A stretch of 13,499 bases of DNA from an uncultured Dialister sp. Lineage in GTDB: Bacteria > Bacillota > Negativicutes > Veillonellales > Dialisteraceae. The DNA lies in the NCBI GenBank assembly GCA_934216155.1, contig CAKQBK010000070.1:1-13499 (forward strand), in the 5' to 3' direction. The translations under genes were made by a program, and so were the position numbers. The notes beneath the pieces are model-generated. The model did not search any database, was not told where the DNA came from, and worked only from the letters and a program-made list of their open reading frames with translations. This document shows, one piece after another, positions 3,510 to 13,499 of this stretch (the first letter of the stretch is position 1; every line of letters starts with the position of its first letter).

Positions 3510-3761
3510 TTACCGGGATTTCAGAATCGCTGCGGCTGCGGCTTTCACTTTGATGCCACAAGCACGACCGATTTCTTTTTTAGTAAAATCCTGTACCACA
3601 GGAATGGCTGACGCTCCGCAAGCTTCTGTCAGCGGGCCGGAAATACGCTCATCACAGTCAGATGCGATAAATACGCAAGAGGCTTCCTGTTTTTCAATGG
3701 CTCTTTCTGTTTCTTTCATCCCTACGACGAAAGAAGCTGATTTCAAATCTTCCAGTGTCAT
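3510..3761 (-). CDS. rplGB: Ribosomal L7Ae/L30e-like protein (YbxF type)
   Basis: An 83-residue protein of the L7Ae/L30e/S12e/Gadd45 family, whose members bind kink-turn RNA. It shows the family layout: CVFIASDCDERISGPLTEAC near residues 29-48, then IPVVQ and TKKEIGRACGIKVKAAAAAI in the C-terminal third. In Bacillota the gene for this protein (ybxF, also called rplGB) normally lies between rpoC and rpsL, and it is just upstream of rpsL here. The start at 3761 follows CAGGTGAG, a weaker ribosome binding site than those of the downstream genes. It is the first gene after the operon promoter, with a leader of about 40 bases. The family is clear; its exact role on the ribosome is not settled. Confidence 0.9.
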   Translation of the reverse strand: MTLEDLKSASFVVGMKETERAIEKQEASCVFIASDCDERISGPLTEACGASAIPVVQDFTKKEIGRACGIKVKAAAAAILKSR

Positions 3762-3807
3762 TCATTCTCACCTGCTTTACAGCATACTAAATCCACGCAA
3801 CATTGGA

Positions 3808-3836
3808 ATTATATCATTCTATAGCAAGGATGTCAA
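3808..3836 (-). promoter_or_regulatory. str operon promoter, perfect sigma-70/SigA consensus
   Basis: On the minus strand TTGACA (3836-3831) is followed by a 17-base spacer and TATAAT (3813-3808). Both hexamers match the consensus in full. The sequence upstream of -35 (about 3837-3875) is A/T-rich with A-tracts and could act as an UP element. Transcription should begin near 3801, about 40 bases before the rplGB ATG. This is the strongest promoter in the window and serves rplGB-rpsL-rpsG-fusA-tuf. Confidence 0.92.
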
Positions 3837-3953
3837 CAAAATTTATATCCATTTTTCTTCGTATTTATGCATAACTTTTTTACAACGTAACCAGGCGTAT
3901 CATTTTGTCGATTTGAATAGCGTCTTTTGGTATTTCAAACCGATACTTTTCTC

Positions 3954-4025
3954 AGTGAGGAGTGAGAAGTGGTGGAAGGGGCGCACAAAATTTGGAAGCG
4001 CCCCAATACCCCCTTTTTTATTTTT
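3954..4025 (+). repeat. Composite repeat U1: 7-bp array, GC hairpin, T tail
   Basis: AGTGAGG and AGTGAGA (3954-3967), then AGTGGTGG, AA, a stem GGGGCGC (3978-3984) with GCGCCCC (3998-4004) around a 13-base loop, then AATACCCCC, six T, A, five T. GGTGG can also pair with the CCCCC run, bringing the stem up to the T tract. The plus-strand form looks like an intrinsic terminator, but no plus-strand gene precedes it. It faces U2 (5116-5179) as an inverted partner. Confidence 0.85.
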
Positions 4026-4028
4026 GGG

Positions 4029-4105
4029 TGACTGGTGACTCGTGACTAGTGACTGGGGATTGGGGTTAACGGTTGACCGTTAACTGGTAACTGTCAACCG
4101 TTAAC
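4029..4105 (+). repeat. Eleven 7-bp repeats in continuous register
   Basis: Reading in steps of seven from 4029: TGACTGG, TGACTCG, TGACTAG, TGACTGG, GGATTGG, GGTTAAC, GGTTGAC, CGTTAAC, TGGTAAC, TGTCAAC, CGTTAAC. The motif drifts from TGACTNG to GGTTAAC without losing the 7-bp step. It follows directly on U1. Confidence 0.85.
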
Positions 4106-4106
4106 C
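4064..4106. repeat. Perfect 14-bp inverted repeat
   Basis: GGTTAACGGTTGAC (4064-4077) and its exact reverse complement (4093-4106) enclose a 15-base loop. It is formed by the last heptamers of the preceding array. Confidence 0.85.
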
Positions 4107-4197
4107 ATTCCTCTACTTGAAAACACCATATATTCATCTACAAAATAGGAGGAAATATTCCCATCAGGTGTAATTCTTAACGAAAAGTCTCATTTCA

Positions 4198-4309
4198 TTC
4201 CACAAGCATCATTAGGAGTTGCAGGGAATAACGCAAAGATTTCTCCGCTTCGGTCGAAATGACGTTAGCGCCATGCAACGCTAGAAATAAGAAAAGATCG
4301 CTTGTGGAA
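4198..4309. repeat. 112-bp inverted-repeat element
   Basis: Ends are TTCCACAAGC (4198-4207) and GCTTGTGGAA (4300-4309), exact reverse complements. A second inner pair is GTTGC near 4218 and GCAAC near 4275. It contains GATTTCTCC...GGTCGAAATGACG, parts of which recur in the element at 4450-4646. No coding sequence; it resembles a small non-autonomous mobile element. Confidence 0.6.
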
Positions 4310-4384
4310 CTGGGGCCTGGTAGCTAGGGATTAGGGGAAATGCCATTGCGTCAAGTGTAATATGCGATGATTCCCTTCAGAGAA

Positions 4385-4690
4385 GGGGTTCTAAGGGTTC
4401 TGAAGATTCTAAGGGTTCTAAGGGTTTCTCGAATGTGCCTCTCTCCAAAGCCGTCATTTCGACCGATGGGATTGGTGCTAAATATCACAAAAAGATTCAA
4501 GCGACTATGTTGGACAAAAGTGGAGAAATCTGGTGTCTCTTTCAATCATCTCGCTAGTGTCACAAGATTTCTCCACTTCTGTCTAACATAGTCCCAGACT
4601 ACTCTGCAGCGTCATTCCGCACAAATACGATCGGTCGAAATGACGGATGTGGCTAGTGACACGTTCGAGAAAGCCGAAACCCTCAAAACT
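4385..4690. repeat. 9-bp-repeat inverted element, core replaced by a nested inverted repeat
   Basis: The left arm has 9-bp units (GGGGTTCTA, AGGGTTCTG, AAGATTCTA, AGGGTTCTA from 4385) ending in TTCTCGAATGTGCC. The right arm is GACACGTTCGAGAA (about 4657-4670) and a degenerate remainder. Between them lies about 220 bp with its own symmetry: a 17-bp perfect inverted repeat (4451-4467 with 4630-4646) and a 33-bp arm pair (4503-4535 with 4561-4593; 30 of 33 positions match). Related copies have a short core instead. Confidence 0.65.
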
Positions 4691-4774
4691 TTTTTACCGC
4701 TAGGAGCAGGTATCACCAAGTACGCTTGATATGTTCATAGCGAAGTATACCGCTAAAGCTGCCCCCTCTTGTAT

Positions 4775-5033
4775 TCTCCCCCGACGGGCAATGCTATTAA
4801 GTTAAGCGAAATATGCGATGATTTCTACTGATGCAAAGGTTACTCAGGTTTCTCAGGATACTGAGGTTTCTCACGTTTCTCGAATGAGCCAATAACGCTA
4901 GCGTCTATTGGCACATTCGGAGAACCTGAGCAACCTGAGAACCCTTAGAAACTTTGGAGCCTGTCCCCACTAGCGGAATCATGTCTATTAACGCAAATCC
5001 TTAACTTAACAGCATTACCCCGATGGGGGGAGA
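4775..5033. mobile_element. 259-bp terminal-inverted-repeat element with nested 9-bp-repeat palindrome
   Basis: Ends match as inverted repeats of about 32-34 bp: TCTCCCCC...AATGCTATTAAGTTAAG at 4775-4806 and its counterpart at 5000-5033, with the innermost 17 bp differing at one position. Inside is a 9-bp-repeat palindrome (TTTCTCAGG-type units, about 4837-4947) centred on GCCAATA, ACGCTAGCGT (4895-4904) and TATTGGC. No reading frame is supported, so it looks like a non-autonomous element (MITE-like). No target duplication was recognised. Confidence 0.6.
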
Positions 5034-5070
5034 TAAAACGCTAGTACCTTTACAGATAGAGTCATATTTC

Positions 5071-5113
5071 CTAATCCCTAGTCCCTAATCCCCCAGTCAC
5101 GAGTCACTAGTCA
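5071..5113 (-). repeat. 7-bp repeat array next to U2
   Basis: Plus-strand reading: CTAATCC, CTAGTCC, CTAATCC, then one unit with an extra base, then CGAGTCA, CTAGTCA. Reverse complemented it matches the TGACTNG/GGATTAG heptamers after U1, which extends the inverted pairing of the interval ends to about 110 bp. Confidence 0.8.
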
Positions 5114-5115
5114 CC

Positions 5116-5179
5116 AAAAATAAAAAAGAGCGGCGCTTCATGAATTGCTCGCCGCTACCACCATTTCTCACTTCTCACT
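5116..5179 (-). terminator. Composite repeat U2: terminator of the LOG-family gene
   Basis: On the minus strand the array AGTGAGA, AGTGAGA is followed by TGGTGGT, a stem AGCGGCG (5156-5150) with CGCCGCT (5135-5129), and the tail CTTTTTTATTTTT. T residues follow the stem at once, as in an intrinsic terminator. The stop codon of the LOG gene (5168-5170) lies inside the heptamer array. Confidence 0.85.
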
Positions 5180-5728
5180 GCTTTTTAAAAGTTCCATCAC
5201 TTCATCCAAGGTCTGGCAGAAATGAATATTTCCCCAATCGCCCGCTTCGATAAATCCCGCTTCCCGCCAAGCTTTCATCTGCTGCTTCAGTGCATCGTAA
5301 ATGCCATCGATATTGACGATGATGATCGGCGGTTGATGGTCTTTGTCTCCGTAGATGTGGTTTTGATTGGCCGTGTCTGCCAATTCTTCTAGCGTACCAA
5401 ATCCACCGGGCAGGATGACGAAGGCATCGCCCATGGCAATCATTTTTTGTTTGCGGATGGTCATGTTTTCCACTTCAATCAGTTCTGTGATCCCCCGATG
5501 AGCCTGTTCTTTGGCAATGAAAACTTCTGGAATCACACCAGTCACTTTTCCACCTGCTGCCATGGCCGCATCGGCGCAAATTCCCATAAGACCTACGGTA
5601 CCGCCACCATAAATCATGTGAAATCCGCCTTTTCCCAAAGCTTCCCCCAGCTGCCCTGCAAAGGACGCATAGGCCGGATTATTTCCAAAATGAGAACCGC
5701 AATAAACGACGATATGTTGATAGGACAT
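5168..5728 (-). CDS. LOG family protein (TIGR00730-type Rossmann fold)
   Basis: A 186-residue cytosolic protein of the LOG family, whose studied members release free cytokinin bases from nucleoside 5'-monophosphates (phosphoribohydrolase). Many bacterial members have no proven substrate. Visible motifs are the N-terminal VVYCGS (7-12), the GGGTVGLMG loop (41-49), IRKQKM (91-96) with the family arginine, and the signature PGGFGTLEE (107-115) with the conserved acidic residues. After the signature it reads LADTANQNHIYGDKDHQPP, unlike the TWxQLGxHxKP of most homologues, so it is a divergent branch. The ATG at 5728 follows AAAAGGAGAGG. The last codons (SSEK and stop) come from the downstream 7-bp repeat. 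It seems to be a single-gene transcript ended by U2. Confidence 0.9.
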   Translation of the reverse strand: MSYQHIVVYCGSHFGNNPAYASFAGQLGEALGKGGFHMIYGGGTVGLMGICADAAMAAGGKVTGVIPEVFIAKEQAHRGITELIEVENMTIRKQKMIAMGDAFVILPGGFGTLEELADTANQNHIYGDKDHQPPIIIVNIDGIYDALKQQMKAWREAGFIEAGDWGNIHFCQTLDEVMELLKSSEK

Positions 5729-5751
5729 AGAGGCACCTCTCCTTTTTATAT

Positions 5752-5830
5752 AGTTAGAAGTGAGGAGTTAGGAGTGAGGAGTGGTGGTAGCGGCGCATAA
5801 AATTTGGAAGCGCCGCACTTTTTATATTTT
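5752..5830 (+). repeat. Composite repeat U3: heptamers, hairpin, T tail
   Basis: Heptamers AGTTAGA, AGTGAGG, AGTTAGG, AGTGAGG (5752-5779), AGTGGTGG, TA, stem GCGGCGC (5790-5796) with GCGCCGC (5810-5816), tail ACTTTTTATATTTT. It begins 24 bases upstream of the LOG start codon, in antisense orientation to that gene, and pairs with U4. Confidence 0.85.
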
Positions 5831-5846
5831 GAGGGATTAGTAGTTG

Positions 5847-6007
5847 GGGAAACGCTGATTTAATCAAAGAGTTTGAAATTATATGAATTTTTATCCAAAG
5901 CATCGTCAAGAAAATCCTTAAATAGCTCGCTATTCGCGGATTTCCTTTCCTCGCTTTGTATAAAAATTCAAGAATAATTTCAAACCATGATTAAATCAGT
6001 GTTTCCC
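5847..6007. mobile_element. 161-bp near-perfect palindrome (MITE-like)
   Basis: From GGGAAAC at 5847 to GTTTCCC at 6007 the two halves are reverse complements over about 80 bp each with scattered mismatches. Shared blocks include CTGATTTAATCA, GTTTGAAATTAT, GAATTTTTAT and AAATCC, and the centre is AATAGC-TC-GCTATT at 5921-5934. Heptamer-like sequence (GGATTAG on the left, CTAGGCCCTAG on the right) flanks it, as if it had inserted into an older array. No coding capacity. Confidence 0.75.
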
Positions 6008-6148
6008 TAGGCCCTAGAAATTAGTATTATCCGATAGCCGCTTACCATTTCTCTCATTTAAACCTTAAACCAATGACACTTTCAAAACGAATTTATCACC
6101 CACTCTGAACTCGGACAATAAACCCATCCCCAGTCACCAACGATTATA
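6008..6148. other. Intergenic remainder, no gene seen
   Basis: A few degenerate heptamers (CTAGGCCCTAG, CCCCAGTCACC) and otherwise plain AT-rich sequence. No reading frame with a ribosome binding site, and no clear promoter. Confidence 0.5.
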
Positions 6149-6214
6149 CTGCGGCACTTTATAAGTTGTGCGCCGCCACCACCATTTCTAACTTCTCACT
6201 TCTAACTTCTCACT
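6149..6214 (-). repeat. Composite repeat U4, without T tail
   Basis: On the minus strand the array alternates AGTGAGA and AGTTAGA, then TGGTGGTG and a stem GCGGCGC (6176-6170) with GTGCCGC (6157-6151), allowing one G-U pair. The sequence after the stem has no T run, so terminator activity is doubtful. The HAD gene stop (6210-6212) lies within the first heptamer. Confidence 0.8.
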
Positions 6215-6899
6215 CATTGAGTAGCAAATCTCTCAGTTCCGCTACGGTGTCCACCACGTGAGTGGCACCGCGTTCTTCCAGTTCTTCCCGGCTACCGTAG
6301 CCGAAGGTGACGCCTACGCAGGGAAGGTGGTTATCTTTGGCGCCGTCCACGTCATAGCCAGTGTCGCCGATCATGAGAGTGTGACCGGTGAAGTCTTCTC
6401 TCGAAAATCCTTTATCTTCCAATTCGCCAAGGGCTTTCTGGATGATTCTTGTTTTCTGATTTTGGCTGGCTTTTTTATTCAGCTCATCGGCGGCATCGCT
6501 GCCACAGATGACATGGAAATAGGATGTGAAACCGAAATGGTCCATGATACGTTTCACAAAAGGTTCCGGTTTGCTGGAAGCCACCGCCAGGATGTATCCT
6601 TTTTCTCTGGCTTCTTTCAAAAGGTCCCCTATGCCGTCGTAAGGTTCACATTCAAAGATGCCTTCCGTTTCATAAAGTTCTCTGAACTTGGTCACCGCCA
6701 TGCGAATGTCTTCGTCGCTCATGTGATAGAGCTTTCGCATTTGCACATTCAAAGGCGGCCCGATAAAGGTACGAAGCACCGCCATGTCGGTTTCATGAAT
6801 GCCCACCGCTGCCAGGCCGTACTGCACAGATCGAATAATGCCTGGGGCCGATTCCGAAATGGTACCGTCCAGGTCGAATAGTAAATACTGGTATGTCAT
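6210..6899 (-). CDS. HAD-superfamily phosphatase, phosphoglycolate phosphatase-like
   Basis: A 229-residue cytosolic hydrolase of the haloacid dehalogenase superfamily, with a four-helix cap between motifs I and II. Motif I is FDLDGT (8-13), with D9 as nucleophile and D11 as general acid/base. Motif II is the serine in VASSKP (106-111), motif III is probably K149, and motif IV is GDTGYDVDGAK (178-188) with the Mg-binding aspartates. CVGVTFGYGS (194-203) is typical of the Gph/PgmB-like group, so phosphoglycolate or another small phosphate ester is a reasonable substrate, but sequence alone cannot fix this. The ATG at 6899 follows AAAGGAAT, 7-9 bases away. Between it and the TetR gene lies a large inverted repeat; its final E and stop codon fall in U4. 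Confidence 0.88.
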   Translation of the reverse strand: MTYQYLLFDLDGTISESAPGIIRSVQYGLAAVGIHETDMAVLRTFIGPPLNVQMRKLYHMSDEDIRMAVTKFRELYETEGIFECEPYDGIGDLLKEAREKGYILAVASSKPEPFVKRIMDHFGFTSYFHVICGSDAADELNKKASQNQKTRIIQKALGELEDKGFSREDFTGHTLMIGDTGYDVDGAKDNHLPCVGVTFGYGSREELEERGATHVVDTVAELRDLLLNE

Positions 6900-6921
6900 T
6901 GGATCTATTCCTTTTTAATAA

Positions 6922-7060
6922 CTCAGGTTGCTCAAGTCTCTCAGGTTTCTCAGGCGGCTCAGGTTTCCCGAATGTGCCTATAGACACTGGCATCATCAGC
7001 ACATATGAGGAACCTGAGAACCTTGAGAAACCTGAGCAACCTGAGAAACCTGAGAAACCT
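6922..7060. repeat. Inverted arrays of 9-bp repeats (CTCAGGTTT) between TetR and HAD genes
   Basis: The left arm has five contiguous units: CTCAGGTTG, CTCAAGTCT, CTCAGGTTT, CTCAGGCGG, CTCAGGTTT (6922-6966). The right arm has GAACCTGAG, AACCTTGAG, AAACCTGAG, CAACCTGAG, AAACCTGAG, AAACCT (7010-7060). The arms are reverse complements and could form a stem of about 50 bp. The core keeps CGAATGTGCC on the left. The element fills almost the whole gap between the TetR stop (7065) and the HAD ribosome binding site, so it could end or attenuate transcription between the two genes. Confidence 0.85.
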
Positions 7061-7064
7061 TTCT

Positions 7065-7715
7065 TTATTTCGCTCCCTGCAATATTTCCTTCAGATACTC
7101 GTTCTTTTCTTTTTTCTCATCCACATTATCCAAAAGGAGGTCCACGTAGCGGGAGAGGGTTTCTGCGTCGGTGTAGCCGGCGATGAAGGAGTTGGCTTTG
7201 TTGCTTTCCAGAATGATCGGGAATTCGACCGCAGAAAAGAGTTGCATGGCTTTCAGTTCCAGGTCTTTTTCGTCTGTATAGCCGGTGATTTCTGCTACGT
7301 TCCGGATGACTTTTTCCCAACACTGGCTATGGAGCAGAGAGAGATAAATGAAATAGGTATCCTTCGCATCTTCGCTGGATGGATTGGAAATAGAGCGGAA
7401 AAGGGCCGGGTGCTGGCGGGCCAGCTGGAAGTAAGAAATAATGTATTTCTTCAGTCGTTCTTTGGCTGGCAGGCGCATATCGTCCAGGTAGGCCACAATA
7501 TTTTCCAAATTGCCCATCATGTATTCCAAAGCGGCACCGATCAGTTCTTCTTTGGAGCCAAAGTAATATCTGACGGAAGCGATATTCACCCCCGCCTTTT
7601 GGGCAATGGTGCGCACTGTGGCTTTTTTGAACCCTTCTTGCTGCAGGATATGCACCGTGGTTTCAATCATTTTTTCCCGTACTTTTTCCCCTTTTCCGGT
7701 TAGTTTTCTGCTCAT
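7065..7715 (-). CDS. TetR-family transcriptional regulator
   Basis: A 216-residue DNA-binding regulator. The N-terminal TetR_N domain is clear: a helix at about 10-27, then VRTIAQKAGVNIASVRYYFGSKEELI (34-59), the helix-turn-helix with the typical YYFGSKEEL end. The remaining 150 residues form the variable ligand-binding and dimerisation part, and no ligand can be read from them. The start chosen is ATG at 7715, preceded by AAGGAAGG with a 7-base gap; the frame is open to 7811, but that stretch is repeat U5. It has no divergent gene, so its targets are not obvious; autoregulation or control of the following HAD gene are possible. It sits alone between two repeat intervals. Confidence 0.92.
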   Translation of the reverse strand: MSRKLTGKGEKVREKMIETTVHILQQEGFKKATVRTIAQKAGVNIASVRYYFGSKEELIGAALEYMMGNLENIVAYLDDMRLPAKERLKKYIISYFQLARQHPALFRSISNPSSEDAKDTYFIYLSLLHSQCWEKVIRNVAEITGYTDEKDLELKAMQLFSAVEFPIILESNKANSFIAGYTDAETLSRYVDLLLDNVDEKKEKNEYLKEILQGAK

Positions 7716-7722
7716 AATTTTT

Positions 7723-7730
7723 CCTTCCTT
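7723..7730 (-). promoter_or_regulatory. Ribosome binding site fixing the TetR start
   Basis: AAGGAAGG on the minus strand, 7 bases before ATG at 7715. It rules out the upstream in-frame ATG at 7811, which has only hairpin-repeat sequence around it. Confidence 0.8.
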
Positions 7731-7752
7731 TTGGTTTGCGTTAGACTGAAAT

Positions 7753-7829
7753 AGTGAGAAGTTAGGAGTGAGGAGTGGTGGAAGGGGCGCACAACTTATA
7801 AAGCGCCCCAATACCCCTTTATTATAAAT
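7753..7829 (+). repeat. Composite repeat U5
   Basis: Heptamers AGTGAGA, AGTTAGG, AGTGAGG (7753-7773), AGTGGTGG, AA, stem GGGGCGC (7784-7790) with GCGCCCC (7803-7809) around loop ACAACTTATAAA, then AATACCCC and an A/T tail. It begins 38 bases upstream of the TetR start and faces U6. Confidence 0.85.
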
Positions 7830-7865
7830 AATAGTTGCTCAGTCATTCATATGCACCATCCCCAT

Positions 7866-7948
7866 TATATAAAGAGGAGTATAGGGGCACTATATGAATT
7901 GTGTGCCCCTTCCTTCACTACGCACTCCGCACTACTCACTACGCACTC
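7866..7948 (-). terminator. Composite repeat U6 after the activase gene
   Basis: On the minus strand the heptamers (plus-strand reading TTCACTA, CGCACTC, CGCACTA, CTCACTA, CGCACTC at 7914-7948) precede a stem GGGGCAC (7909-7903) with GTGCCCC (7890-7884), loop ACAATTCATATA, then TATACTCCTCTTTATATA. It begins 3 bases after the activase stop codon, the position expected of a terminator, though the T run is short. Confidence 0.75.
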
Positions 7949-7951
7949 AAG

Positions 7952-10900
7952 TTACAGTTTCACATGAATCGCATGTGTGGTTCCCGGGAAATAGGTCTCC
8001 GCCGGAATGTCCTGTTTTTCTGTAAGGGCATTCATCATCAGTTTCAGTCGGTTGGCCTGGTTCACTTCACTGGCGCTGGCGTCGCAGTCCAGGGCCAGGA
8101 AAACTGCTTCCGGATAGGCGTTGTGCAGTTTATGCACCATGCCTTCGCCGGTGATATGGTTCGGCAGGCACGCAAAGGGCTGCAGGCACACCACGCCGCG
8201 ACATTCGTGATACAGGAGATCAATCATATCCGCCGTGAGGAACCAACCTTCACCGGCTCTATTTCCTAAAGACAGGTACTGCGAGGCCCGTTTGGCCAAT
8301 TTTTCAATGCTGGTGATTTCATGGAATCGTTTGGAATTCTTCAAAGCCTTTTCCAGCGGTTTCCGATACCATTCCAACAGATACCGGGAGAAGAGGCCTT
8401 TCAGGTCATCTTTCATAGTACCATCCATGTGGGTTCTTTGGAAGTGGCTATCTAAAGAACCGTAGAGGAAGAAGTCCAGCATACCGCTGGTTTCTGCTTC
8501 GCCCCCATTGGCTTCGATGGCCCGCACGATGTCATTGCTGGCAATGGGGCTGAATTTGACATATATTTCTCCCACAATGCCAATTCTGGGCCGGCGGGGC
8601 ATATCAGCGAGTGGCAAACGATCGAAATCTTTCACCAGATTGGCGATGTTCTTTCGATAGGTATGCATGGAGTCGCCTCGAAGAATGGATTCTCTGCATT
8701 TCTTCTGCCAAGTTTTATAAAGTGATTCCGCGCTTCCCGGCACTTTTTCGTAAGGCCGGGTGCGATAGAGGCACTGCTGCAACGCATCGCCATACACCAC
8801 GGCCTGAATGAGACGAATCCCCAATTTCAAGGTGAAATGGAATCCCGGCTGGGGTTCAAAGCCATGGGTATTGAGGGAAATCACAGGAATCTGCGACAAT
8901 CCCGCTTCGTCCAACGCTTTGTGCAAGAATCCGATGTAGTTGGACGCACGGCACATGCCGCCGGTTTGGGATAGCATGACCGCCACTTTATTTAAATCGT
9001 ATTGGCCGGATTCCAACGCCCGCATCAGGGAACCAATGGTGATGATCGCCGGGTAGCACGCATCATTGTTCACGCAAGATAGCCCTTTGTCGATGTCTTC
9101 ATGAATCGGCGGTAATACCTTCACATGGTAGCCTACGCTCTGGGCCGCTGCTTCCACCAAAGGGAAATGAACCGGTGACATTTCCGGTGCCAAAATGGTG
9201 AAATCCGATTTCATGTCTTCTGTAAATTGAGCCTTCGGATAGAGAATCGGTTCTCCCTTAGTATCTTCATTGATTCGTTCCTGAATGGCCGCTTTGAGGG
9301 AACGGAGACGAATACGAACTGCGCCCAGGTTCAAACTCTGGTCAATCTTGAGGCAAGTATAGAGCCGATTCCGTTTCGTCATGATTTCCTGTACCTGGTC
9401 AGTCACCACCGCATCGAGACCGCAACCGAAGGAATTGAGTTCCACCAGTTCCAGCTGGTTGTGACGGGTCACATAATCGGCCGCTTTATATAGACGGCTG
9501 TGCCAGGTCCATTGGTTCATGACCCGAAGGCTGGGGAATTCTCCCCCCACCATGGCAATCCCATCTTCGGAAAGCACCGCCATGCCCAGCTGATTCATCA
9601 GGTCAGGGATGGAGTGATTCACCGCCGGATCCACATGGTAAGGTCGCCCAGCCAGGACGATACCGATAAGATGCTTTTCTTTGATTTCTTCCAGAATTCG
9701 TTTCGTCTCTGTATAGAGAGATTTCTTGTACTCTCGTTCCGCTGCCTGCCCGGCATACATGGCAGACTGGATGTCAGAGCCAGAAATGCCCATGCCATGA
9801 AATACTTTTTTCAGTTCTCGATGGAGCGCTTTCGGTGCATGGAGCGGCAGGAACGGATGGAGCAAGGTCACATGGTACTTGGACAGCACTTCATCCATAT
9901 TGGCTTCGATATTTTCCGGATAAGACGCCACCATAGGGCAGTTGTAACTATTGGTACTGCCCTCTTCCGGACCCTTATCGATACAAGGATACCAAATGAA
10001 ATCCGGATGGTGTTTCGCCAGGTCTGCCACATGAGCGTGGGCCAATTTGGCCGGGAAACATTCCGAATAGGATGGAATGGTCTCCATAGCTTCTGTGGGA
10101 ATTTCGCGGAGCTGCTCGCTGGATGTCACCACCCGATAGCCCAATTTTCCAAAGAACGCATGCCAATAGGGGAAATCTTCGTACATATTGAGCACCCGCG
10201 GAATGCCAACGGTGCCGCGAACCGCCTGCTTGGGCGACAAGGGCCGGCGGTGCCAAATCTGGTCATATTTCCAGCGATAAATATTTGGCAAAGTAGAGTG
10301 AGGTGCACTCTTCCCAGTCAGCATCAACGCTGCCCCTCGTTCGCACCGATTGCCAGACACAAAGGCGCGACCATCATTGAACCGGGTCAAGGTGATCATA
10401 CAATGGTTGCCGCAGCCGGGGCAACGTTTCATTTCATTGGTGTAAGACAGGGCCTTCAATTTTTCCGGCGTTACCAAAGAGGACACATGGCCTTCCGGGC
10501 ATTTGTCTCTGGTGATGAGCGCAATGCCATAAGCCCCCATAAGCCCTGCCACATCGGGACGAATCACCTGGCAACCCAGGAGTTTTTCCAGTGCCCGCAG
10601 CACTGCATCGTTGTAGAACGTGCCGCCCTGCACCACCACTTTATTTCCTAAATCCGACGCTTTGCGAAGACGAATCACCTTATACAGTGCATTTTTAATG
10701 ACCGAATAGGACAGGCCCGCAGAAATATCTGCCACAGAGACCCCATTCTTCTGGGCTTCCCGGACACGGGAATTCATGAATACCGTACAGCGGGACCCCA
10801 AATCAACCGGATGTTTCGCCGACAGCGCCATGTGGGCAAAGGTCTTGATATCTAGTCCCAAAGACTGGGCAAACGTATCCAGGAACGAACCGCACCCGGA

Positions 10901-12238
10901 CGAGCAGGCTTCATTCAAAAGGATATCATCTACGGCCCCATCTTTGATACGGCAGCACTTCATATCCTGTCCGCCAATATCCAAAATGGTGGTCACGTCA
11001 GGCAGGAAATGTTTCGCCCCTCGATAATGAGCCATAGTTTCCACTTCGCCCACATCGGTTTCCAGGGCCCGCTTGATGAGTTCCTCGCCGTACCCGGTGA
11101 CACCGGCGCCGCAAATGGTGACCCCTTGCGGCAACTTTTCATACAAATCGGACAGAATCTTTCTGGCCCCTGCCAAAGGAGTGCCCTTATTGCTGTTGTA
11201 ATATTCGTACAGAATCCGATTGTCCTTATCCAAAAGCACCGCCTTGATGGTGGTAGACCCGGCGTCGATCCCCAACCACACCGGTCCCTGGGCTTTGGAA
11301 ATATCTCCTCGGGGTGCGTGGAACTTACCGTGCCGTTCTTTGAACGCCCGGTACTGCTCTTCACTTTCAAACAGCGGCGGCAGCGTCTTAGACACGCCCA
11401 AATCCACATCTTTCTCCTGCTCCACCTTGGACAGCCAATTATCCAAATCCATAGGCTTATCATGCATGGCCGACACAGCGGCCCCAATGGCTACGTACAA
11501 TTCCCCATGTTCTGGAACAATCATATCCTCATCGGCAATATGAAGAGTCTCCTGGAACCGCTTCCGCAGCATAGGCTGGAACGTCAAAGGACCGCCAAGG
11601 AACGCCACCTTCCCATGAATCGGACGCCCACAAGTCAAGCCAGAAATGGTCTGATTCACCACTGACTGGAACACCGACAGAGCAATATCCTCATGAGACG
11701 TACCTTCATTCAAAAGTGCCTGGATATCGGTCTTGGCAAATACCCCGCAGCGAGAAGCAATGGGATATACCTGTTTCGCCTTTTCCGCCAATTTTCCCAT
11801 GCCTGCCGCATCGACGGAAAGAAGAGACGCCATACGATCGATAAAAGCCCCGGTACCACCGGCACAAGCACCATTCATGCGCTGGTCTACCCCATTTCTA
11901 AGGTACGTAATCTTCTCATCCTCGCCGCCCAATTCGATGATCACATCAGTCTCCGGATGGAACGTCTTCACTGCCTTGGTTTCCGCCAATATTTCCTGAC
12001 AGAAAGGAAGACCCATGAGCTTCGCCAGCCCCATACCACCACTACCAGAAATGGACGCAGTGATACGGTAACCAGAAAACTCCTTCGCCAGCTCTTTCAA
12101 AAGCGACATCGTAGCCTTTCTGATATCCGACATATGCCGCTGGTATCGCCCGAAAAGAAGCTTCATATAGGGCGATAAAGCCACTACCTTCACCGTGGTA
12201 GAGCCTACATCGATTCCGACATGAATCACTGGTTTCAT
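7952..12238 (-). CDS. Giant 2-hydroxyacyl-CoA dehydratase activase-like protein (two ATPase domains plus DUF2229/HgdB-like parts)
   Basis: A 1428-residue cytosolic protein. Residues 4-256 and 320-573 are two BcrAD/BadFG/HgdC-type ATPase domains: GIDVGSTTVK (8-17), ELGGEDEK (102-109), NGACAGGTG (122-130), SRCGVFAKTD (162-171), then GIDAGSTTIK (323-332), DIGGQDMK (420-427), NEACSSGCG (442-450), SRCTVFMNSR (482-491). C125/C164 and C445/C484 sit 39 residues apart in both copies, the spacing of the Fe-S ligands in HgdC as I recall it. CPGCGNHC (606-613) follows, then a DUF2229-like region (about 676-900) and an HgdB-like C-terminal region with further conserved Cys (C1055, C1061, C1096). Known relatives use ATP to push one electron into radical dehydratases; the substrate of this fused type is not established. 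The ATG at 12238 follows AGGAGG. No separate dehydratase subunits are adjacent. Confidence 0.93.
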   Translation of the reverse strand: MKPVIHVGIDVGSTTVKVVALSPYMKLLFGRYQRHMSDIRKATMSLLKELAKEFSGYRITASISGSGGMGLAKLMGLPFCQEILAETKAVKTFHPETDVIIELGGEDEKITYLRNGVDQRMNGACAGGTGAFIDRMASLLSVDAAGMGKLAEKAKQVYPIASRCGVFAKTDIQALLNEGTSHEDIALSVFQSVVNQTISGLTCGRPIHGKVAFLGGPLTFQPMLRKRFQETLHIADEDMIVPEHGELYVAIGAAVSAMHDKPMDLDNWLSKVEQEKDVDLGVSKTLPPLFESEEQYRAFKERHGKFHAPRGDISKAQGPVWLGIDAGSTTIKAVLLDKDNRILYEYYNSNKGTPLAGARKILSDLYEKLPQGVTICGAGVTGYGEELIKRALETDVGEVETMAHYRGAKHFLPDVTTILDIGGQDMKCCRIKDGAVDDILLNEACSSGCGSFLDTFAQSLGLDIKTFAHMALSAKHPVDLGSRCTVFMNSRVREAQKNGVSVADISAGLSYSVIKNALYKVIRLRKASDLGNKVVVQGGTFYNDAVLRALEKLLGCQVIRPDVAGLMGAYGIALITRDKCPEGHVSSLVTPEKLKALSYTNEMKRCPGCGNHCMITLTRFNDGRAFVSGNRCERGAALMLTGKSAPHSTLPNIYRWKYDQIWHRRPLSPKQAVRGTVGIPRVLNMYEDFPYWHAFFGKLGYRVVTSSEQLREIPTEAMETIPSYSECFPAKLAHAHVADLAKHHPDFIWYPCIDKGPEEGSTNSYNCPMVASYPENIEANMDEVLSKYHVTLLHPFLPLHAPKALHRELKKVFHGMGISGSDIQSAMYAGQAAEREYKKSLYTETKRILEEIKEKHLIGIVLAGRPYHVDPAVNHSIPDLMNQLGMAVLSEDGIAMVGGEFPSLRVMNQWTWHSRLYKAADYVTRHNQLELVELNSFGCGLDAVVTDQVQEIMTKRNRLYTCLKIDQSLNLGAVRIRLRSLKAAIQERINEDTKGEPILYPKAQFTEDMKSDFTILAPEMSPVHFPLVEAAAQSVGYHVKVLPPIHEDIDKGLSCVNNDACYPAIITIGSLMRALESGQYDLNKVAVMLSQTGGMCRASNYIGFLHKALDEAGLSQIPVISLNTHGFEPQPGFHFTLKLGIRLIQAVVYGDALQQCLYRTRPYEKVPGSAESLYKTWQKKCRESILRGDSMHTYRKNIANLVKDFDRLPLADMPRRPRIGIVGEIYVKFSPIASNDIVRAIEANGGEAETSGMLDFFLYGSLDSHFQRTHMDGTMKDDLKGLFSRYLLEWYRKPLEKALKNSKRFHEITSIEKLAKRASQYLSLGNRAGEGWFLTADMIDLLYHECRGVVCLQPFACLPNHITGEGMVHKLHNAYPEAVFLALDCDASASEVNQANRLKLMMNALTEKQDIPAETYFPGTTHAIHVKL

Positions 12239-12247
12239 GAAAAACGA

Positions 12248-12253
12248 CCTCCT
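12248..12253 (-). promoter_or_regulatory. Ribosome binding site fixing the activase start
   Basis: AGGAGG on the minus strand, 9 bases before ATG at 12238. The frame stays open to 12319, but the 27 extra residues have no family likeness and run into a repeat element. Confidence 0.9.
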
Positions 12254-12285
12254 GACCATACAAAGATGGAATGGGATTCTTACGG

Positions 12286-12416
12286 TAAGCGAAATATGGG
12301 ATGATTTCTTTTGCGCCAAAGTTTCTCAGGTTGCTCAGGATTCTCAGGTTGCTCAGGTTCCCCGAATGAGATGATAACGCTAGCGTTTATTGGCACATTC
12401 GAGAAACGTGAGAACC
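12286..12416. repeat. 9-bp-repeat inverted element upstream of the activase gene, right arm shortened
   Basis: The flank GCGAAATATGGGATGATTTC is shared with the element near 4806-4825. It is followed by TTTCTCAGG, TTGCTCAGG, ATTCTCAGG, TTGCTCAGG (12322-12357), the core CCCGAATGAG, ACGCTAGCGT (12377-12386), TTATTGGCACATTCG, and only about two units on the right (GAGAAACGTGAGAACC). The arms are unequal, so it appears truncated. Any activase promoter must lie within or to the right of it; none was convincing. Confidence 0.75.
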
Positions 12417-12627
12417 TTTCCCTAATCCCTAGGGTCTAGCTACTAATCCCTAGTCCCTAATCCCTTCTCTTCCAATACCTTGTATGCAATGATTTAGCAT
12501 AATCCTATTCTAACATTATTCAACAAATCTCTCAATCCGTAAGGTTTAAAACAACCGTTTACATTCATACATATTTTGTAGAAAAAGGGAATTTATTCAT
12601 AGAAATTATAGATTACTATGATTTGAG
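12417..12627. other. Heptamer array and AT-rich intergenic stretch
   Basis: 12421-12466 holds heptamers on the minus-type motif (CTAATCC, CTAGTCC, CTAATCC), with a perfect TCTAGCTA variant among them. They are inverted relative to the array at 12628-12676. 12467-12627 is AT-rich with no gene and no convincing promoter that I could find. Confidence 0.6.
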
Positions 12628-12725
12628 TGACTGGTGACTAGGGACTGGTGACTAGTGACTAGTAGCTAGGGATTAGAGAATTAAGAGTTAGAAGTGAGAA
12701 GTTAGAAGTGAGGAGTGAGGAGTGT
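12628..12725 (+). repeat. Fourteen 7-bp repeats in unbroken register
   Basis: In steps of seven from 12628: TGACTGG, TGACTAG, GGACTGG, TGACTAG, TGACTAG, TAGCTAG, GGATTAG, AGAATTA, AGAGTTA, GAAGTGA, GAAGTTA, GAAGTGA, GGAGTGA, GGAGTGT. The motif passes gradually from the TGACTAG type to the AGTGAGG type without any insertion or deletion over 98 bp. It leads straight into hairpin U7. Confidence 0.9.
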
Positions 12726-12770
12726 TGGAAGGGGCCCACAATTCATATAGGGCCCCAATACCCCTTTTTA
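12691..12770 (+). repeat. Composite repeat U7
   Basis: The last five heptamers of the array, TTGGAA, stem GGGGCCC (12731-12737) with GGGCCCC (12750-12756), loop ACAATTCATATA, then AATACCCC and TTTTTA. It has the same layout as U1 and U5 but a different stem sequence that still pairs fully. It faces U8. Confidence 0.85.
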
Positions 12771-12772
12771 TA

Positions 12773-12846
12773 GTAATGCTATGAAGTTAAGAAAAAGTAT
12801 AAAAAGTGGCGTCATTTATATCATCCTCTTAATTTAATGACATTAC
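12773..12846. mobile_element. 74-bp miniature terminal-inverted-repeat element
   Basis: The ends GTAATGCTATGAAGTTAAGA (12773-12792) and TCTTAATTTAATGACATTAC (12827-12846) are inverted repeats matching at 16 of 20 positions. The end sequence TAATGCTATnAAGTTAAG is the same as the inner terminal repeat of the 4775-5033 element, so the two belong to one family. The internal 34 bp has no coding capacity. Confidence 0.6.
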
Positions 12847-12920
12847 CGTAGAGAGCACTGTCCTACGGACCTATCATCTGTATGTAAGATAGGAAGTTTG
12901 AGTAAAAACTTTTGCAAAAA

Positions 12921-12936
12921 TGTTTCATGTGAAACC
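12921..12936. promoter_or_regulatory. parS-like palindrome
   Basis: TGTTTCATGTGAAACC matches the ParB/Spo0J site TGTTTCACGTGAAACA at 14 of 16 positions. Such sites are usually found near the replication origin and recruit ParB and SMC. It is a single degenerate copy in a repeat-rich gap, so it may be chance. Confidence 0.4.
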
Positions 12937-12937
12937 A

Positions 12938-13020
12938 AAATAAAAAAGGGGTATTGGGGCGCCTTATGATTTGATGCGCCCCTTCCACCACTCCTCACTC
13001 CTCATTCCTCACTCCTCACT
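12938..13020 (-). terminator. Composite repeat U8
   Basis: On the minus strand four heptamers (plus-strand reading CCTCACT, CCTCATT, CCTCACT, CCTCACT at 12993-13020), TGGTGGAA, stem GGGGCGC (12982-12976) with GCGCCCC (12962-12956), AATACCCC and TTTTTTATTTT. A good intrinsic-terminator shape on the minus strand; no gene is visible upstream of it in the window. Confidence 0.8.
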
Positions 13021-13049
13021 ATTTCCTAATCTCTTCCAGTCACCAAGCT

Positions 13050-13115
13050 ATCATAATGCGGCGCTTTATAATTTGCGCGCCGCCACTACAACTCCTCACT
13101 ACGCACTCCTCACTG
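13050..13115 (-). repeat. Composite repeat U9, without T tail
   Basis: On the minus strand the heptamers (plus-strand reading CTCCTCA, CTACGCA, CTCCTCA at 13092-13112) precede a stem GCGGCGC (13083-13077) with GCGCCGC (13064-13058). The sequence after the stem has no T run, as in U4. It is the only copy without a facing partner in the window; the partner may lie to the right. Confidence 0.75.
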
Positions 13116-13127
13116 CTCTTAAATGCA

Positions 13128-13167: not shown

Positions 13168-13499
13168 TTTCTTATAAAGTTCCCGTTAGGGCAATTCTAC
13201 CTTCCATGGAAAGTAGAGGGGGAAATGGGGAAGAAAATATAAATCATTACCATGGTAATGAGATTTGGAAAAAGGTTATTATTCTGCTGAATCGGTCAGA
13301 GACTATAGGTATACTACCGCTAGCATCAAGGTTATATAAGGTTATATGGGGTTATGTGACTCCGCCGGTTGTACATAACCTTGTATACCCTTTTTAACCT
13401 GTATGATGGTGGTATCTTGCGATAAGACATCCATCGAAATCAGTAGAATAATACCCTTTGTGGATACTGCCTACTGCCAACAGCAAACTGCCAACTTGT
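13168..13499. other. Gene-free right end with palindromes
   Basis: No reading frame with a ribosome binding site or family likeness. It contains two palindromes centred on CCATGG (13197-13216, and the perfect 18-bp TCATTACCATGGTAATGA at 13244-13261). It also has a three-unit direct repeat of AAGGTTATAT type with a downstream inverted copy (13329-13398), and a short heptamer run (CTGCCTA, CTGCCAA, CAGCAAA, CTGCCAA) at the very edge. Confidence 0.5.
13329..13398. repeat. 10-bp direct repeats with inverted copy
   Basis: AAGGTTATAT, AAGGTTATAT, GGGGTTATGT (13329-13358) are followed, after a 14-base GC-richer spacer, by ACATAACC, TTGTATACCC and TTTTTAACC, which read as the inverse. The arms can pair over most of about 27 bp with mismatches. 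No neighbouring gene explains it. Confidence 0.6.

Follow-up and report, generated by a model that had tools for sequence, protein, structure and literature searches.

Facing pairs of heptamer-array and hairpin composites in a Dialister contig: probable gene-less descendants of an element bearing a PF05635 gene

A stretch of 13,499 nt from an uncultured Dialister sp. (positions 1 to 13,499 of contig CAKQBK010000070.1, assembly GCA_934216155.1; the whole stretch is termed the window) carries nine copies of a composite in which an array of 7-bp repeats is followed by a GC hairpin, eight of them arranged as four inward-facing pairs. We interpret each facing pair as the two ends of a gene-less, probably non-autonomous descendant of a presumed mobile element that bears a PF05635 gene and has swappable array ends, and we put the probability of this interpretation at about 0.6. 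An initial annotation of the window, made from the sequence alone, had offered three explanations for the pairs, namely a two-ended terminator system, long-range hairpins or the ends of a non-autonomous mobile element. That interpretation stands in part: the last of the three fits best, because one pair (5/6) is absent from relatives, neighbouring composites face each other rather than away, the two arms of a pair share their repeat unit, and ends of the same kind flank a gene in a related genome, G005.

All nine copies, in the order + - + - + - + - -, were read at the positions originally assigned to them:

3940..4020, plus strand: copy 1; heptamer array, TGGTGG spacer, GC hairpin and T tail; left end of facing pair 1/2
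5114..5193, minus strand: copy 2; right end of pair 1/2; the LOG gene stop codon lies within its array
5752..5832, plus strand: copy 3; left end of facing pair 3/4; immediately upstream of the LOG gene start
6135..6214, minus strand: copy 4; right end of pair 3/4; the HAD gene stop codon lies within its array; T tail absent
7746..7825, plus strand: copy 5; left end of facing pair 5/6
7868..7947, minus strand: copy 6; right end of pair 5/6; lies 4 nt past the activase stop codon
12693..12772, plus strand: copy 7; left end of facing pair 7/8
12940..13020, minus strand: copy 8; right end of pair 7/8
13042..13121, minus strand: copy 9; unpaired, adjoining copy 8; T tail absent

In consensus, the copies run from AGTGAGG heptamers (about 2 to 6 units per array) through AGTGGTGG and two further bases to a GC stem of 7 bp that encloses an AT-rich loop of about 13, mostly with TTTTT behind it. 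The TGGTGG spacer first ascribed to every copy is present in six, its place being taken by TGAAGG in copy 6, TGTTGG in copy 7 and TTGTAG in copy 9, and the T-rich tail is clear in copies 1, 2, 3, 7 and 8, weaker in 5 and 6 and missing from 4 and 9. Stem pairs 2 and 6 of the seven have changed on both sides among the copies with the stem kept. The motif GTAG directly adjoins the stem in copies 2 and 3 and lies near it in copy 9, the remaining feet being GGAAG or GTGG. Copies 1, 5, 7 and 8, all with a GGGGC stem, carry AATACCCC between stem and T run, and their spacer GGTG could pair with TACC, giving a possible second helix; copy 6 has a GGGGC stem too, but TATACTCC in place of AATACCCC. No match to the window was found in Rfam at gathering score. 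The link to stop codons within the window proved tighter than the initial annotation had claimed, in that arrays contain the stop codons of two genes, LOG (5168) and HAD (6210), and the stop of the activase gene (7952) lies 4 nt outside one.

The link between such ends and a gene family comes from G005, one of six related genomes (G001 to G006) that were compared with the window. One G005 facing pair encloses a gene for a four-helix-bundle protein matching PF05635 (‘23S rRNA-IVP’) with an E value of 3.6e-37 and weakly akin to bAvd; no transposase gene but this PF05635 gene is what lies inside matching ends. When 20 genomes were searched, PF05635 was found in six, and the element-rich G005 has eight such genes, four of which (L276, L279, L282 and L288) were judged by eye to have array, foot and hairpin on both sides. 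Elements with and without the gene adjoin one another at G005:C67 and their ends are nearly identical; as these siblings have common outer flanks, they indicate local duplication with gene loss or gain and not two insertions. Gene-bearing elements have hairpins of two types, which were counted 21 and 23 times across the G005 stretches. Same-type neighbours there number six and are all tandem; among the five mixed-type neighbours within 1 kb, four face each other (one pair enclosing a gene and three gene-less, with gaps of 120-254 nt) and one is tandem.

The association of PF05635 genes with flanking arrays extends well beyond this genus. Matches to the family were found in 56 of 299 Bacillota genomes, 48 of them above the family cut-off, and in 28 plasmid records, 22 of which are cyanobacterial by name. 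We scored 63 loci, made up of 17 from relatives, the best-placed 30 of 99 Bacillota matches and 16 of the 28 plasmid records, and compared them with 575 control open reading frames (ORFs) from 117 loci of mixed phyla, which were not composition-matched and derive from a pattern scan over the contigs of all species that was too unspecific for its first purpose and yielded mainly unrelated loci; ORF calls for locus scoring, for neighbouring ORFs and for the placement of copies described below were made by a crude greedy procedure. Periodic arrays within 250 nt on both sides were present at 27/63 PF05635 loci and at 2/575 controls (Fisher p 6e-28), and an array of at least 17 of 21 matching positions on one side at least was present at 37/63 and 6/575, respectively. 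By group, arrays on both sides were found at 6/17 loci from relatives, 10/30 from Bacillota and 11/16 from plasmids, and at least one array at 9/17, 20/30 and 16/16. The G-rich strand runs inward at 25 of the 27 loci with arrays on both sides. The units themselves vary from element to element (AGTAGGG, GGGAACA, AAAGCTA, CGAAGTT, CAGGAGA and others); in G116 the unit ACTAGTA is found, with up to three mismatches allowed, only at the element's two ends across 3.1 Mb, and in G293 the element's heptamer is also found at scattered further places.

One window pair and two gene-bearing plasmid units sit where relatives have none. The window pair is 5/6, which makes up nearly all of the activase/TetR junction:

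7719..7951, no strand assigned: activase/TetR junction of 233 nt holding pair 5/6

Comparison was made with the congeners in which both genes are adjacent (the G002 stretch has no activase match and G003 was left out), and in all four (G001, G004, G005 and G006) the end of the activase gene and the start of the TetR gene overlap in an ATGA, with nothing between. Presence and absence at an orthologous site, as expected of miniature inverted-repeat transposable elements (MITEs), is therefore seen for pair 5/6, although the last activase residues differ too at the junction, so that the empty site is not a clean one. The two plasmid units separate cas6 from cas4 in the type I-D cas operons of Anabaena sp. 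90 and Pseudanabaena galeata. These genes meet at plain junctions in Nostoc UHCC 0302 and Stanieria, and Dolichospermum UHCC 0315A, whose cas6 is identical at 800/823 aligned positions (97%), lacks the unit and has another insert there, which implies that this junction takes inserts repeatedly. That other insert (L335 1338-1582) has inverted ends GTAGGTTGGGTTGACG and AACCCAACCTAC. A lone AATTACG array stands between cas6 and cas4 in Pseudanabaena ABRG5-3 (L337 1556-1591) and is perhaps the scar of a lost element. A PF05635 unit also lies between cas10 and a cmr3-type gene in the type III-B operon of Picosynechococcus PCC 7003 (L328), so that CRISPR operons are hit at 3 of the 16 plasmid loci. 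When two long G005 loci were followed by synteny, the matches were partial and none resolved into an empty site.

Copies of the composite itself were sought with a model built from the nine window copies, which recovers all nine, as expected of a training set, at 66.7-97.8 bits. At E values up to 0.01 it gave at least 63 matches in G005 (an undercount, since 78 of 613 candidates were scored), four in G004, one in G001 and none in G002, G003 or G006, together with one to three weak matches in each of four genomes from other families. A scan by layout only classed 138 of 993 oriented hairpins as composites (132 in G005 and six of the window's nine under the strict rule), against 1 of 981 in a mirrored-flank control; the G005 sequence scanned amounted to 363,405 selected bases in stretches picked around model matches, and composite density is accordingly biased upward. 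The initial annotation had proposed looking for the composite in relatives, and in G005 it does occur, more than 100-fold, though with many different units. These include AGTTATC, AGTGATA, CGTGATT, GGGATTA, CGGGGTG and 9-bp units such as TCGGGAGTC, in each case followed by a foot such as GAAGGTGG and then by the GC hairpin, and AGTTATC is the commonest unit in G005 and the window taken together. The layout is conserved across composites and the 7- or 9-bp unit is exchangeable; in this genus each array has a GGTGG-like foot and the GC hairpin, mostly T-tailed, on its inner side. In G001, and with less clarity in G004, GTGGTGG/GTAG feet and GC hairpins come after arrays of 9-bp GGTTCAGAA-type units; the spacer-plus-stem pattern shows no excess in G001 (28 versus 50 for the reversed pattern).

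The polarity of the composite bears on the idea that the copies are plain short tandem repeats of the cyanobacterial STRR type, spread by slippage or recombination and lying near hairpins by chance. Four cyanobacterial stretches and one Bernardetia plasmid stretch do hold the same heptamer with no foot or hairpin, and the heptamer-plus-hairpin composite was not found in them. In G005 plus the window, however, 214 arrays were found (block-shuffled control, 1), and the GC hairpin lies 3′ of the G-rich strand in 140 of them and on the other side in 23; with this one-sidedness, and with 13 facing and no outward-pointing neighbours, we consider chance proximity very unlikely. Arrays of AGCCGTT in G005 (L179, L187 and L205) have a hairpin in only 3/9 cases, unlike most other units.

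Neighbouring arrays in G005 and the window prefer to face each other over pointing away, but tandem order is commoner than either, so that the preference for facing pairs which the initial annotation looked for holds in the first sense and not in the second. Where both arrays carry a hairpin and lie within 700 nt, 13 neighbours are facing (two in the window), 29 are tandem and none is turned outward; for all neighbouring arrays within 700 nt the counts are 28 facing, 67 tandem and 3 outward. Counted instead by hairpins that share an intergenic region and lie at most 1,500 nt apart, 21 neighbours are facing, 19 tandem and 2 back-to-back. Unit sharing between the arms of facing pairs averages 0.32, as compared with 0.087 for random arms (p 7e-4), and inverted ends common to one unit, as in MITEs, are thus present. 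Facing pairs are units, then, and tandem order is also common; the window, with eight of nine copies paired, exceeds the rate in G005. It seems that the two ends of an element must mainly match each other.

Predicted RNA pairing gives a similar picture across PF05635 loci. The own arms of a locus pair better than swapped arms at 44/62 loci (p 6e-6; one of the 63 was omitted as its flank was short or held N). In the window, pairs 5/6 and 7/8 are each predicted to fold as one long hairpin (z -9.8 and -15.7), and the idea of long-range hairpins is upheld to that extent, as a prediction; the window arms are interchangeable, so that pairing there is not specific to the pair.

The hairpins also have much in common with intrinsic terminators, and one alternative is that the copies are simply such terminators, doubled for two-way insulation, with arrays grown by replication slippage and nothing mobile about them. 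Besides the compensatory changes in the GC stem, at least four T are found in the 8 nt after the hairpin in 102/140 composites (background 15%), TTTT is present in 75/140, and many copies follow a stop codon. The terminator option of the initial annotation is borne out in part. The T run is lacking, however, in window copies 4 and 9, and three of the four window pairs lie between genes of the same direction. Placement is also less regular beyond the window: of 141 copies in G005 and the window, 61 follow a same-strand gene end, 43 are on start sides, 33 are inside ORF calls and four have no neighbour, which is a modest bias towards stop codons and no strong rule. Slippage, moreover, leaves the common inverted unit at both ends and the PF05635 link unexplained, and we regard terminators without mobility as unlikely. 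A consensus terminator scan of the window found 10 as against 10.0 expected, under a rule that omits loops longer than 8 such as those here. From their sequence, the T-tailed hairpins look like terminators that were added in a Dialister-like genus.

Our working model combines these features in a mobile element. Its full form would be a four-helix-bundle gene (PF05635) between two inward-facing 7-bp repeat arrays, and the unit would insert as a whole. In a transcript the two arrays would pair into a long stem, which might be cut by RNase III as in 23S rRNA intervening sequences (IVS), with excision of the insert from the operon transcript, and by this excision an insert within an operon would do little harm. 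The hairpins would stop transcription that runs into the unit, and the PF05635 protein may act in trans on gene-less copies.

A number of observations weigh against this model. Within the window no PF05635 gene or remnant was found (best tblastn E 0.04), the arms show no preference for their own partner in predicted pairing, and a full PF05635 form with AGTGAGG ends is not among the elements seen. At pair 5/6 the activase C-terminus differs, making the empty site imperfect, and no target duplication was seen by eye, the relatives being too distant to define the site. In G005 the C67 siblings arose by local duplication, tandem neighbours outnumber facing ones when the window is included, and four of the eight PF05635 genes do not have composite ends on both sides (by eye, L285 has a composite at one end at most, L283 has arrays with no composite, and L286 and L287 have none). 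Across phyla, 36/63 PF05635 loci fall below the both-sides threshold, inverted k-mer sharing alone does not discriminate (53/63 loci versus 420/575 controls), and among 21 neighbouring ORFs at PF05635 loci one has arrays on both sides and six have one strong array. Neither RNase III nor transposition experiments with such units are known to us, and to our knowledge no catalytic function is established for PF05635; 2gsc and 2rld, two solved relatives of the family, were deposited as uncharacterised proteins.

Two other movers were considered. The copies could be repetitive extragenic palindromic (REP) sequences in pairs like bacterial interspersed mosaic elements (BIMEs) or REPINs, moved by a tyrosine REP transposase (RAYT), with the arrays secondary. 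High copy number and facing pairs would fit, as would the GTAG that adjoins the hairpin in G001 and in two window copies (2 and 3), but PF01797 has no match in G001, G002, G003, G004 or G006, and its two matches in G005 have plain IS200-type ends and no composite. As no PF01797 gene flanked by a composite was found in G001 to G006, RAYT was rejected as the mover, and we hold this explanation to be highly improbable. The element could instead be copied via RNA by a reverse transcriptase acting in trans, in the manner of the Avd protein of diversity-generating retroelements, which we take to be a relative of PF05635. PF05635 has a weak kinship with bAvd, an RNA route has reportedly been suggested for the small dispersed repeats of cyanobacteria, and a PF00078 match is present in 6 of the 13 PF05635-bearing genomes searched. 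The other seven, G005 (75% complete), G006, G010, G025, G066, G116 and G318, have none; a reverse transcriptase as necessary partner is thus unsupported, and copying by this route appears to us quite unlikely.

The genes of the window, all on the minus strand, comprise a fusA/rpsG/rpsL/L7Ae operon (fusA, rpsG and rpsL named by eye from their ORFs), a LOG-type gene, a HAD hydrolase, a TetR regulator and a large CoA-enzyme activase. Among and beside them lie further arrays:

5168-5728, minus strand: LOG gene; stop codon supplied by the copy 2 array
6210-6899, minus strand: HAD gene; stop codon supplied by the copy 4 array
4027..4056, plus strand: second heptamer array, GGTGACT, directly inside copy 1
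4833..4954, no strand assigned: facing 9-bp arrays, AGGTTTCTC and its reverse complement, around a short palindrome; nested in pair 1/2; same layout, other unit
5070-5112: array like the GGTGACT one; follows copy 2, within pair 1/2
6921..7060, no strand assigned: second element with facing 9-bp arrays; separates the TetR and HAD genes
12313..12412, no strand assigned: third element with facing 9-bp arrays; lies upstream of the activase gene
12626..12672, plus strand: second heptamer array, AGTGACT, directly outside copy 7

The TetR/HAD junction, which holds one of the 9-bp elements in the window, is short and plain in G006 and has arrays of its own in G001 and G004. Relative to the window order L7Ae-LOG-HAD-TetR-activase (3510-12241), LOG and the HAD/TetR/activase block are inverted with respect to L7Ae in G001 and G004, and the facing repeats may have served as crossover points for this inversion. 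Pair 3/4 contains a palindromic element of about 165 nt (5844-6012) with ends GGGAAACGCTGATTTAATCA and TGATTAAATCAGTGTTTCCC, to which, with 40 candidates scored for each genome, about 39 matches were obtained in G001, about as many in G004 and one in G006. An ACTGCCA heptamer array (13466-13496) and a 10-bp AAGGTTATAT array (13328-13355) lie at the window end.

The composite is a real finding that goes beyond a curiosity of one genome. More tentatively, and with doubt prevailing on our part, we suggest that it belongs to a new class of mobile element with no transposase or reverse transcriptase of its own, in which a PF05635 gene would lie between inward arrays of a freely changing 7-bp repeat and the arrays would act as a self-complementary stem and not as a recognised sequence. 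The heptamer arrays of Cyanobacteria, Xanthomonas, Beggiatoaceae and Bacteroidetes, orphan S23 genes and the 23S rRNA intervening sequences would then be forms or remains of this class, and the Dialister pairs miniature terminator cassettes. Many genomes have proteins annotated as ‘four helix bundle’ or ‘S23’ to which no role is assigned, and heptamer arrays have so far been described separately as regulatory sites or quadruplex formers. Were the proposal correct, an unexplained repeat class and an orphan protein family would explain each other, the scattered heptamer repeats of unrelated bacteria would be accounted for by a PF05635 element, and a mobile unit could be defined in a new way, by ends that retain only their period and polarity and not their sequence.

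The statement in the initial annotation that no named element has this layout still holds for the literature searched. MITEs and REP/BIME/REPIN sequences resemble the window pairs in being short, intergenic and of high copy number with inverted ends; the window-type pairs differ from them in having no conserved end sequence, and no transposase or RAYT partner was found. The small dispersed repeats of Nostoc, said to have been described by Elhai in 2008, are reportedly 21-27 nt long with compensatory stems and often embedded in heptamer arrays, with no array ends of their own and no gene. GGGNATC heptamer arrays of Xanthomonas and Nostoc are intergenic, and many have a stop codon no more than 50 bp away. 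Two Xanthomonas genomes contain 70 and 75 convergent pairs, and Nostoc has few; the arrays were read as G-quadruplex repeats generally not tied to mobile elements, and the available text of that report describes no link to a four-helix-bundle gene (PMC4692102). The TAACTGA direct repeats of Beggiatoaceae, Cyanobacteria and Bacteroidetes, for which translational regulation was proposed, are the same heptamer that, read as AGTTATC, is the commonest unit in G005 and the window, and the accessible part of that source says nothing of hairpin ends, of a four-helix-bundle link or of facing pairs as a general arrangement (PMC4679880). Within the extracts available from the open-licence literature, no link between heptamer arrays and a four-helix-bundle gene was found outside the 23S rRNA element. 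The window pairs are not members of the REP/RAYT systems or of the 23S rRNA IVS: they adjoin protein genes and do not lie in a 23S rRNA gene, and an S23p/IVP gene within inverted ends was not found in the window but is present in G005. The closest described relative is nevertheless the 428-nt 23S rRNA element of Coxiella, in which an S23p gene lies within inverted ends forming a stem and an RNase III site is placed at the start of tandem heptamers upstream of that gene; it was called selfish, and mobility was proposed for it (PMC4990558). The 23S rRNA elements and the PF05635 units have in common an S23p gene inside inverted ends and tandem heptamers beside it, whereas the window units are gene-less and stand beside protein genes, with heptamer arrays at both ends and hairpins added in the genus.

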